The notes under the pieces are model-generated. The model made no database searches, was not told where the DNA came from, and saw only the letters and a list, made by a program, of their open reading frames with translations. The position numbers and the translations under genes are program-made. Positions 39,690 to 43,840 of a DNA stretch of 64,000 nt are shown one piece after another. The stretch is taken from NCBI RefSeq assembly GCF_963682185.1, contig NZ_OY821667.1:4105501-4169500 (forward strand), in the 5' to 3' direction. The number at the start of each line of letters is the position of its first letter. Position 1 is the stretch's first letter. This DNA comes from an uncultured Cohaesibacter sp. (lineage in GTDB: Bacteria > Pseudomonadota > Alphaproteobacteria > Rhizobiales > Cohaesibacteraceae).

Positions 39690-40535
39690 CTAGCCTGCAT
39701 CGGGGCGCTTTTGCGCCAGAACCAGATGGCCATAGATCGGCTTGCCCTCGTCTGTGCGCACCACGATCATCTCGAAATGCTTCACGTCCATGCGGTTTGT
39801 ATCCAGCAACTCACGGACATAGCGTTCCGAATGGGCAAAGCGCTGCTTGGGACCGACCTTGTATGGCGCTCCATCGAAATCTTCCTCCGGCATCGTTTCG
39901 GAGGAAAAGGCAAACAGCCCTCCAGCATCAAGGCACCGGCCCACATGGTGGAATTTTTCATCCAGCTCACCCAGATAGGGCAGCACATCGGTCGAAACAA
40001 TCAAATCCCAGCCGCTGGCTTCGCCTTCGCCATCATCCTCGATTTCGCTGAGGAATTCCACCACATCGCCAGCATAGAGATCATCGTAGACTTCCTTGTC
40101 ATAGGCTTCGTCCAGCATGCCGGTGGAGATGTCCACGCCGATCATGTTGTCCACCTTGTCCTTCATGGAGATACCCGTAAGGCCTGTGCCGCAACCAAGA
40201 TCCAGCATGCGGGCAAAGCGGCGTTCTGGGGCGGCTGAGTGAATCATCTCGCGCACCATCATCGGCACGGCATAGCCCAGATCATCCACGAGAATTTTCT
40301 CAAACGCTGCTGCATGCTGGTCAAACAGGGTTGCCACATAGGCAACGGGTGCTTTGTCCGGCGAGGGGCCGCGCTGCATGGAAGCCAGACGCACCGATGC
40401 ACCGGCATGATCTTCCGGGTCCAATTCCAGAGCTTTGCGGTAGCTTTCTGCGGCTTCATCAAACTTGCCGGCTTTCTCAAGCTCCAATGCATTGTTGTAA
40501 GCCTCTTGCAAGGCGTCGAGGTCAATCTCGGACAT
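39690..40535 (-). CDS. TPR-containing class I SAM methyltransferase
   Basis: 281 residues. About 1-45 form one TPR unit (YNNALELEKAGKFDEAAESY, RKALELDPEDHAGA). The methyltransferase spans about 75-260: motif I MLDLGCGTGLTG, then IGVDISTGMLDEA, and DVVEF / DLIVSTDVLPYLGEL. The substrate is unknown; similar proteins are annotated only as TPR methyltransferases. The ATG is preceded by a weak site. It is divergent from rnhA across the 137-bp repeats. Confidence 0.85.
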   Translation of the reverse strand: MSEIDLDALQEAYNNALELEKAGKFDEAAESYRKALELDPEDHAGASVRLASMQRGPSPDKAPVAYVATLFDQHAAAFEKILVDDLGYAVPMMVREMIHSAAPERRFARMLDLGCGTGLTGISMKDKVDNMIGVDISTGMLDEAYDKEVYDDLYAGDVVEFLSEIEDDGEGEASGWDLIVSTDVLPYLGELDEKFHHVGRCLDAGGLFAFSSETMPEEDFDGAPYKVGPKQRFAHSERYVRELLDTNRMDVKHFEMIVVRTDEGKPIYGHLVLAQKRPDAG

Positions 40536-40773
40536 TGTATTCTTCCAGATCTATTGGCCGCAGGGCCGGTGGCGCTGTTTCTGTTTGGCGTAAGCTCTAC
40601 ACCGCCCCATATGTGAGAGCAAGCATCTTGCGCCTTGAGGAAGGGTTGGCTAGACAGGGCAGCAAATCGAATATCCCTCGTAAGCGGCCATTGCCCTTGG
40701 CGCCCGCAGCGCCTTTGGCGCGAGGACGAGAAAACCCAAAGAGATGCCGCCGCAAGGGGCATAAGGAGCCAGC

Positions 40774-40914
40774 ATGAGCCAAGTGACAATTTGCACGGTA
40801 GGTGCTTGCTCTGAAAATTCCGGGCCATTGCCCTTGGCGCCCGCAGCGCCTTTGGCGCGAGGACGAGATAACCCAAAGACATGCCGCCGCAAGGGGCATA
40901 AGGAGCCAGCATGA
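40774..40914 (+). pseudogene. Truncated rnhA 5' copy 1 (46-codon frame)
   Basis: It starts MSQVTICTVGACSENSG, compared with [17 protein letters not shown] in rnhA, so the catalytic Asp is Val. After 17 codons it runs into the next repeat's leader and stops in a tga that overlaps the ATG of the next copy (atga). The ribosome site is preserved, so it could be translated and couple to the next frame. Confidence 0.7.
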
Positions 40915-41051
40915 GCCAAGTGACAATTTGCACGGTAGGTGCTTGCTCTGGAAATTCCGGGCCATTGCCCTCTGCGCCCGCAGCGCCTTTGGCGCGAGGA
41001 CGAGACAACCCAAAGACATGCCGCTGCAAGGGGCATAAGGAGCTAGCATGA
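40911..41051 (+). pseudogene. Truncated rnhA 5' copy 2 (46-codon frame)
   Basis: Same structure as copy 1, starting MSQVTICTVGACSGNSG. It also carries Val for the catalytic Asp. Its tga stop overlaps the true rnhA ATG (atga) at 41048. If translated, it would be an upstream frame directly coupled to rnhA. Confidence 0.7.
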
Positions 41052-41488
41052 GCAAAGTGACAATTTATACCGATGGAGCCTGCTCTGGAAACCCCGGGCC
41101 AGGCGGCTGGGGGGCCTTGCTGACCATGGGGGATCATGAAAAAGAGCTTTGCGGCGGCGAAGCCAACACCACCAACAACCGCATGGAGCTGACCGCAGCG
41201 ATCGAAGCTCTCAATGCCCTGACGCGGGCCTGCGATGTGGATCTTTATACCGACAGCCAATATGTCAAAGGCGGTATTACGGGCTGGATTTACGGCTGGA
41301 AGAAAAACGGCTGGAAGACCGCTGCCAAGAAACCGGTCAAGAATGCCGAGCTGTGGCAGGCACTGGACGATGCCCTCAAACGCCATAAGGTGGAGTGGCA
41401 TTGGGTGAAGGGTCATGCGGGCCATGATGGCAATGAGCGGGCGGACGAGTTGGCCCGTCGTGGCATGGCGCCCTACAAGGAAGGCTGA
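41048..41488 (+). CDS. rnhA: Ribonuclease HI
   Basis: 146 residues. Catalytic residues are in place: Asp in [17 protein letters not shown], Glu in [12 protein letters not shown], Asp in [13 protein letters not shown] and the C-terminal His/Asp in [17 protein letters not shown]. It cleaves the RNA strand of RNA-DNA hybrids. The start at 41048 follows ataaggag at eight bases and overlaps the stop of an upstream truncated copy of its own 5' end. Confidence 0.96.
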
Positions 41489-41559: not shown

Positions 41560-41883
41560 CTAGCCGTGGAGCATCGTGGTTAGTTGGCGAATGTAGGATT
41601 TCTCGGACGCGCGGACATCTTCAACATCGCCCTCCAGCTCCACGCCCATGTGATGGCCTTTTCTCCAGATCATCTGTACCGGAGCCAGTGTGCCTTCCTT
41701 GCGGTTGAGCAACGTCATTTCTGTGGGGAGCATCAAGCCCGGATCGACCATGAGCTGCATGCCATCGTCGCTTTCATTGCGAATGGTGCAATCCACGCTC
41801 ATCATGTAATTCTGGAAAAAGAGCTTGGCCCCTTTGAAGACCCGGCGCCTCAGGCTCTGGCGTCGTTCCAGGAGTATAGCCAT
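41560..41883 (-). CDS. PilZ-domain protein
   Basis: 107 residues from the ATG at 41883, with agaggag nine bases ahead; an upstream in-frame start is less likely. The c-di-GMP motif is present as ERRQSLRRRV (RxxxR type) and NESDDGM (the [D/N]xSxxG part). The rest, VQMIWRKGHHMGVEL, matches the PilZ beta barrel. It could be a small c-di-GMP receptor. Another PilZ gene follows about 460 bp away on the same strand. Confidence 0.85.
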   Translation of the reverse strand: MAILLERRQSLRRRVFKGAKLFFQNYMMSVDCTIRNESDDGMQLMVDPGLMLPTEMTLLNRKEGTLAPVQMIWRKGHHMGVELEGDVEDVRASEKSYIRQLTTMLHG

Positions 41884-41943
41884 CGAACCAGGCTCCTCTC
41901 TGCTATCCTGTTGGCACCTCAATGATTTTTCAATTCTTATCAA

Positions 41944-42345: not shown

Positions 42346-42690
42346 CTACAGCCTTCTGGCTGCGATAATGGAGAGGCGGCGGATATCGGCGCCGGGTAGG
42401 CGATCAACGTCGGTCCTTTGTCCCGTAAAGTGGATGCCTGCCTTGCTGCCCGTGTGCCATATGATATGCGCATCGACCAATTGCCCTGTGTTTCTGTCCA
42501 GCAGAGAGAAACGAGAAGACAAGTCATGGTCGGAAGCCAGATCAAGCAGAATGTGCATGCCGCTTTCACTCTCGTTTCCGATTTGGCAATCAATCATGAA
42601 TGAGAAATGCTCGCAAAATAGCTTTCCGGGTTTATGGACAAGCGTGCGAGGTTCCTTGCGTCGATCTTCTCTTGGGGCAATGTGTTCCAT
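42346..42690 (-). CDS. PilZ-domain protein
   Basis: 114 residues. PilZ signs are EDRRKEPRTLVH (RxxxR type) and NESESGMHILLDL. The barrel end reads AHIIWHTGSKAGIHF. The layout matches its neighbour at 41.6 kb, so the pair probably arose by duplication, although identity looks low. Both lie between two EAL-protein genes and may report c-di-GMP. The aaggag site is about 11 bases before the ATG. Confidence 0.82.
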   Translation of the reverse strand: MEHIAPREDRRKEPRTLVHKPGKLFCEHFSFMIDCQIGNESESGMHILLDLASDHDLSSRFSLLDRNTGQLVDAHIIWHTGSKAGIHFTGQRTDVDRLPGADIRRLSIIAARRL

Positions 42691-43441: not shown

Positions 43442-43840
43442 ATGAGCTCGATATACAGGATGGCAAGACCACACAAGAAAGGCGAAGCTGACGTGAATAA
43501 GACAGACAATGCGGTAGAAATCGGTTCCTACTTCGAACAGTTCATCTCCAAACAGGTGGCAAGCGGTCGTTTTTCCAGCGATATGGAAGTATTGCAGGCC
43601 GGTTTGCGTCTTCTTGAAGAGAAAGAACTGCATTTCCATCTGGAAAAAAGCAAACTGGGTGACACCAGCTCTGAGGGCGTGGACGAAGTGATCACGGCCG
43701 AGAAAGAAGTAGGGGATGTATCCCGATCCGTTACCGAGGCAATGCGTGCACTGGCAACAGCTGCAGGTGATGTCGACAATGCTCTGCCCGCTATTCCCGT
43801 GACAAAAGGTCTGCTGCGTCCGCAAATCGCTGCGGAATAA
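43442..43840 (+). CDS. Orphan ParD-like antitoxin-family protein
   Basis: 132 residues. Residues about 28-62 ([36 protein letters not shown]) match the ribbon-helix-helix region of ParD antitoxins, which bind DNA and usually neutralise ParE. No ParE gene adjoins; a terminator and thrC follow. The C-terminal half is longer than in classic ParD and not toxin-binding in an obvious way. The start is uncertain: ATG at 43442 or 43460, or GTG at 43493. It may act as a lone RHH regulator. Confidence 0.6.

Follow-up and report, generated by a model that had tools for sequence, protein, structure and literature searches.

The tandem array in front of rnhA in an uncultured Cohaesibacter sp. is probably (at roughly two in three) one case of an arrangement that recurs across the order: a hairpin element (E) stands inside a gene near its end, between two copies of that gene end (T). 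E flanked by two T is written T-E-T below. E joins such copies at about a dozen genes that are unrelated to one another, in many members of the order, and this has the look of a genetic element not described before. What the many unrelated genes have in common is the hairpin as the link between their gene-end copies, which goes beyond the view of the array in the original prediction. The window, i.e. the whole stretch of 64,000 nucleotides that was analysed, belongs to genome G000, a single 5.39-Mb contig. The closest RnhA among named genomes is that of Cohaesibacter marisflavi (99%). The features of the window are:

39690..40535 (-): divergent gene upstream, left of the array, with TPR and methyltransferase domains (ORF, domain search)
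40686..40822 (+): unit 1, hairpin E, leader, ribosome site, ATG and 49 nt of the rnhA start (TRF, unit alignment)
40696..40735 (+): E copy 1, core 40701-40728 (R2 model, 52.3 bits, E-value 6.9e-11; this copy is itself in the model)
40774..40914 (+): decoy frame 1, 46 aa, Asp to Val, TGA overlapping the ATG of decoy 2
40823..40959 (+): unit 2, differing from unit 1 at 3 positions (TRF, unit alignment)
40833..40872 (+): E copy 2 (R2, 46.3 bits)
40911..41051 (+): decoy frame 2, 46 aa, Asp to Val, TGA overlapping the rnhA ATG
40960..41096 (+): unit 3, hairpin E, leader and true rnhA start (TRF, unit alignment)
40970..41009 (+): E copy 3 (R2, 50.6 bits)
41048..41488 (+): rnhA, ribonuclease HI, 146 aa (Pfam PF00075, E-value 8e-55)

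Near rnhA lie a PilZ-domain gene (42346-42690, -) and a gene at 41560-41943 (-) that resembles it by eye, with no Pfam match at 0.01. A protein with a ParD-like antitoxin domain is encoded at 43442-43840 (+).

The original prediction described three 137-bp units standing head to tail, and this is borne out by both TRF (137-bp unit, 3.0 copies over 40686-41101, 93% matches, no indels) and the alignment of the units. Within each lie the hairpin, a leader with the ribosome site AAGGAG, and an ATG that opens a copy of rnhA bases 1-49. The Asp9 codon GAT has become GTA (Val) in both decoys, as had been noticed; by homology we take Asp9 to be the catalytic Asp. The TGA of each decoy frame sits within the following ATGA, which gives the anticipated stop-start overlap at both junctions. 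Per 137 positions, units 1 and 2 have 3 mismatches, units 1 and 3 have 17, and units 2 and 3 have 15; the decoys are thus closer to each other than to rnhA. The exact hairpin pattern has 3 matches in the window versus a mean of 0.00 in shuffles, therefore the array is not due to chance. The suggested search with the 137-bp unit was run: in the genome it returned the three rnhA units only, which rules out a dispersed repeat. Arrays of other copy number stand in related genomes. BLAST against plasmids gave 34 records, the best place covering at most 40% of the query and corresponding to the rnhA gene part. As an RNA fold the rnhA unit is not unusual (z -0.65), and no sigma-70-like site was found in 40500-41120.

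E is a 40-nt covarying structure of the form YGCCCGCA-stem-loop-GAGGAC. In an alignment of 34 E hairpins the share of paired cells is 98.4%, versus 84.7% in shuffles; both sides have changed in 7 of the 9 pairs, and covariation is 0.363 versus 0.121 in shuffles. None of 500 shuffles reached any of the five structure measures, and slid versions of the alignment pair in 22-47% of cells. Two mismatches and a bulged A are nearly fixed, and a GNRCAAA-like 3' flank is common to many copies. No Rfam match on E was found in the window stretch or at 19 loci.

The exact rnhA-type hairpin is confined to rnhA (7 of 21 genus genomes), so that as such it is not a genus-wide dispersed repeat. With a relaxed core it is also found downstream of groEL in G005 and G010, where the stems are different yet complementary. 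The groEL 3' end forms a TRF tandem array in G010, G001 and G016. The tandem copies at L195 (G010), L205 (G001) and L211 (G016) comprise the groEL end and its terminator, and the same was seen by eye at L202 (G011); remnants of such copies are visible by eye in other species. A second hairpin type, GTGCGC-loop-GCGCAC, occurs at groEL joints in G010 and G011. In G017 a weak match of R1, the first E model, lies where the 3' end of a gene for a PdhS-like kinase is duplicated (133-bp unit). Among the weak R1 matches only 1 of 38 loci (L177-L194, L212-L231) has a TRF array, which counts against the association, with the limit that TRF misses decayed copies too.

When 397 genomes of the order were scanned for the exact core, at least 125 matches came from outside Cohaesibacter, and these were examined for stems. 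An inner stem of at least 4 was present in 27 of the 125 listed (21.6%), versus 5.4% in shuffled sequence. Among the matches listed, T-E-T was found at 12 of these 27 (11 by BLAST, 1 by eye); no gene-end copy was found at the other 15, which counts against the arrangement. With a shorter counted stem 2 of 19 passed, namely tRNA-Gln of G127, a real T-E-T whose stem is mismatched, and an unrelated protein repeat. The genes of the exact-core set are hisF, glyS, a CaiB-type CoA-transferase gene, cimA and tRNA-Gln (one locus per protein gene named by NCBIfam, the others by sequence). About 0.6 kb before glyS of G314 lies a Guanidine-II riboswitch above its gathering score (L376:360-406). Upstream regions of hisF added five T-E-T: a decoy was present in 5 of the 27 multi-match loci shown, so second HisF matches are mostly not decoys. 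One empty arrangement was found, the hisF of G285, which has neither E nor decoy nor leader while G392, G349 and G143 of the same genus have T-E-T. An outer inverted repeat joining decoy end and new leader, suspected by eye at several hisF loci, was discarded (2 of 11 passed 0.05 against shuffles).

The later E model, R2, built from these hairpins, was then searched over the order under strict filtering, with 16 candidates scored in each genome; its counts are therefore lower bounds. At an E-value of at most 0.01 at least 57 of 397 genomes have E: 13 Cohaesibacter, 36 others at 1e-3 or below and 8 weaker (0.002-0.009). Genomes with a match carry 1-5 copies (lower bound). Loci were inspected in the genomes at 1e-3 or below, and T-E-T was present in 35 of the 36 such genomes outside Cohaesibacter. 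The freshest part of this test comprised 21 genomes absent from the building of R2, and in them T-E-T was found in 24 of 25 places (21 by self-BLAST, 3 by eye). The exception, G060, in which E forms a 46-bp array by itself and no copy of a gene end was seen, counts against the arrangement; five E hairpins stand there in tandem (L523:1001-1230). The fresh test yielded further hisF, glyS, cimA and tRNA-Gln loci as well as new genes: tRNA-Met (5' end; presumably the initiator, by reading), ilvC, dnaJ and mmsA (3' ends). T-E-T was identified by eye in G143, L508, L522 and L527, and L382 is among the loci picked by eye.

Outside Cohaesibacter the duplicated end is the 5' end in hisF, glyS, cimA, CoA-transferase and tRNA-Met, and the 3' end in ilvC, dnaJ, mmsA and tRNA-Gln. 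The polarity is constant. The gene body lies on the GAGGAC side (3') of E at all the T-E-T loci that were inspected, which cover 12 gene kinds (frames or tRNAs mapped for 13 loci, the rest by eye). E is sense at 5' ends and antisense at 3' ends, and the gene-body side is unchanged. If the gene kinds are taken as independent, such constancy would arise by coin tossing about once in 2000. The T copy 3' of E is continuous with the gene body, which keeps the gene whole, while the T copy 5' of E is truncated and forms the decoy. The window has the same features: the core YGCCCGCA / GAGGAC in three copies (40696, 40833, 40970), gene-end copies on both sides of E, the gene body 3' of E, and both decoys ending at the next start with TGA at +1, a trait lost in most Cohaesibacter relatives.

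On the wider scale of the class, a stricter pattern was matched in 4 of 385 genomes, G000 among them. Two of the three others resemble chance in coding sequence by eye; the third, G540, is a hairpin array. In this genome, from another order of the class, E-like hairpins alternate with a second hairpin (L387:1290-1560), and viral contigs L390-L394 contain a similar, longer form.

The stop-start arrangement behind the coupling that the original prediction had proposed is supported for protein 5' ends outside Cohaesibacter. In a first set the decoy stop falls at -6..+7 of the true start in 15 of 15 loci (other frames 1/30), and in a later set in 10 of 13 (1/26), i.e. in 25 of 28 scored loci versus 2 of 56 other frames. 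The -6..+7 range was set from the spread of the first 15 loci and gene starts were chosen by eye. The three uncoupled loci of the later set all belong to one genus and count against the coupling. Overlap forms include ATGA, TTGA, TGATG, TAATG, TGAATG, ATGCTGA and ATGCCTGA. Differences between decoy and gene are mostly synonymous in both sets (pS 0.373 and pN 0.034 in 15 loci; pS 0.444 and pN 0.038 in 13), while a neutral decoy beside a gene fixed as protein would be expected to show a pN of about half of pS. By this comparison of sequences the decoy is conserved as protein. The coupling and pS/pN counts leave out G246, which has lost the start of its decoy, G120, where the contig ends within the decoy, all decoys of G261 except the last, and G010, whose decoy is degenerate. 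Coupling accounts for the decoy frame but does not alone account for the conserved decoy peptide; the copies may exchange sequence, the end of a related gene may have been imported, or the peptide may itself have a role.

These observations bring up the possibility that E and the decoy frame form a regulatory leader, in which an RNA hairpin within a translated leader is bound by a factor and controls the hand-over of ribosomes. The core is kept while the stems covary, at 25 of the 28 loci scored the decoy frame reaches the start, and the decoy peptide is conserved, all as such a leader would have it. We consider it rather unlikely as the explanation of E: at the 3' ends of groEL, ilvC, dnaJ, mmsA, the PdhS-like kinase gene and tRNA-Gln, E is antisense and control of this kind would be senseless, and in Cohaesibacter decoys the coupling is mostly lost.

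In the genus itself, rnhA decoys are present in 10 of 17 genomes with an rnhA match (G000 included), in 1-4 copies, and the array is thus a copy-number-variable repeat between species, as had been suggested. There is one decoy in G009, G001, G007 and G010 (degenerate in the last), two in G000, G014, G003 and G012, three in G011 and four in G006. Six genomes (G002, G016, G017, G015, G008, G005) have neither hairpin nor decoy at rnhA, and G013 has the hairpin before rnhA without a decoy, which counts against the T-E-T reading. The units measure 121 to 182 bp. Leaving aside the degenerate case, all nine others have an rnhA copy that breaks off near codons 17-18, with the hairpin next. No hairpin stands before the first copy in G003, G006, G014, G001 and G007, as T-E-T predicts; one is present there in G000, G009 and G012. 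Between the rnhA decoy and the gene G007 has two copies of just the hairpin, as a 45-bp unit (L015:1372-1466).

For 17 of 19 decoys the nearest copy is that of the same genome, therefore copies turn over. The proposed history of one duplication, decay and a second duplication fits G000, and across the genus it gives way to this turnover. The rnhA tree is poorly supported and does not separate one gain from several. Of the 18 decoys scored, 3 retain the ATGA overlap, and these belong to 2 of 9 genomes, G000 and G009; the remaining 15 are uncoupled, which counts against coupling as a general feature of the genus. The Cohaesibacter decoys are relaxed, since pS is 0.168 and pN 0.057 (pN/pS 0.34). 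In G000 the decoys show 5.5 synonymous versus 5.5 and 4.5 non-synonymous changes, so the peptide conservation seen elsewhere does not extend to them. Coupling at the rnhA of G000, with decoys decaying at the protein level, is possible, and because of this decay control of RNase HI by the decoys is likewise only possible.

A rival explanation is ordinary tandem duplication. It would proceed through short homology between leader and gene (GGGGCCA) followed by slippage, with an old leader hairpin caught in the unit by chance and neutral decoys. GGGGCCA is present in the G013 leader as a short match to rnhA, and this match could by itself explain the rnhA junction. Unequal copy number, similarity within genomes, decay of the Cohaesibacter decoys and the decoy-free hairpin of G013 also agree with it. 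The same E is, however, found in the same orientation in other families, where about a dozen other genes have duplicated ends marked by it, and decoys outside Cohaesibacter are coupled and conserved as proteins. As a general account tandem duplication is refuted, because E is linked to gene-end copies order-wide; for the array as a whole it is improbable.

In 9 of the 15 loci of the first set and 3 of the 13 of the later one, the decoy start overlaps at +1 with the stop of an upstream long frame, and therefore holds the place of the native start there. This would be expected if an element integrating at specific sites had brought a replacement gene end and the loci were its scars or minimal forms, the decoy being the displaced native end. 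The uniform polarity, the targets (tRNA and housekeeping gene ends) and the mostly synonymous differences are also in line with integration. The sequences of the T copies speak for native duplication instead: lineage-specific residues are common to both T (glyS ELRSEE in G087, G152, G316 and G341), and in recent cases (G261, G275) the copies are identical over the compared codons. As no integrase was seen within the 1-2 kb flanks read either, we regard such an element as quite unlikely.

Among known systems, MIRUs (mycobacterial interspersed repetitive units) are tandem units whose small frames are chained to their neighbours by stop-start overlaps, and they form one dispersed family between genes. 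Tandem units and chained frames are alike in the present arrays. In contrast to MIRUs, each array here copies the end of its own gene and the hairpin alone is shared; no dispersal of the MIRU type was seen for the 137-bp unit, which occupies one site of the genome (rnhA). Rickettsia palindromic elements are palindromes inside or at the edge of alphaproteobacterial genes. E resembles them as a palindrome in or at the edge of genes in the same class, and we know of no flanking gene-end copy in the Rickettsia elements. They are among the repeats named in the accessible part of PMC3733652.

The same part of that paper deals with CGTC- and GTAG-tagged REPs, which like E are short palindromes near gene ends in alphaproteobacteria, with CGTC at one end. 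A CGTC REP is described there as having an unpaired CGTC tag, a stem of 8-9 bp that opens with A-T pairs, a loop of 4-5 and a CCA tail. That E is such a REP, moved by a Y1 transposase, is very improbable. On its other strand E does begin with CGTC, and in the account given in that part of PMC3733652 CGTC REPs are mainly alphaproteobacterial, but the CGTC letters of E are paired, there are no A-T pairs at stem positions 1-2 and no CCA tail. The high copy number of REPs is also lacking (at most 5 E matches per genome, a lower-bound count). Unlike the REPs of that source E has a bulged and mismatched core and is accompanied by a gene-end copy.

In translationally coupled leader frames, as far as they are covered in the accessible part of PMC12548453, a short frame ends in a stop overlapping the next start, as here. 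Unlike in those leaders, the leader here consists of the first ~16 codons of its own gene running into a conserved hairpin. No description of T-E-T was found in searches of the open-licence PMC literature, and it is not described in the accessible parts of PMC12306157, PMC5082802 and PMC6006769.

An assembly artefact, the remaining alternative, is practically negligible, because the window genome is one contig and arrays of other copy number occur in other species, including the one-contig genomes G001, G003, G011, G012 and G014.

The T-E-T reading leads to the following scheme. E would have been inserted near a gene end with duplication of that end, or both would have come about in the same event, and the gene would survive since the T copy adjoining its body is complete. 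Recombination between T copies could then add or remove units. Where the decoy is translated, ribosomes stopping at the overlap may re-initiate on the true gene. In G000 such steps would have given the two decoys before rnhA, chained by ATGA overlaps. No movement of E was seen in the one within-genus comparison with an empty arrangement and no enzyme was tied to E, which counts against this scheme.

The E core also occurs in viral contigs. R2 matches 21 of 22 viral contigs that were chosen for the core (24.8-44.1 bits). In Pfam searches of six viral frames four pass the cut-offs, namely Zot (L267, L295), phage replication protein G2P (L301) and Rep_trans (L310), while the Rep_1 matches of L309 and L331 stay below the cut-off. 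In L301, L309, L310 and L331 the hairpin is situated within the replication frame or immediately ahead of it. The filamentous-phage hairpins near replication genes are thus like E by R2 and differ in that no flanking duplication was found at the E-like hairpins of the viral contigs. By analogy they hint at an enzyme acting on single-stranded hairpins and are no proof of kinship. We tentatively suggest, at somewhat less than even confidence, that E represents an undescribed element or process which inserts in fixed orientation near gene ends, copies the end and leaves the gene intact. An HUH-type endonuclease acting on single-stranded hairpins, as in filamentous phages, may perhaps be responsible, and the copied start may be kept under selection as a leader frame that is translated and hands ribosomes on to the gene.

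If the class holds, short structured elements repeatedly sit in important genes (tRNAs, hisF, glyS, groEL, rnhA) without breaking them, because each E stands between two gene-end copies. This would be a way to place DNA in dense genomes. It would also be a source of leader frames that resemble their own gene, of wrong start-site calls and of copy-number-variable markers.
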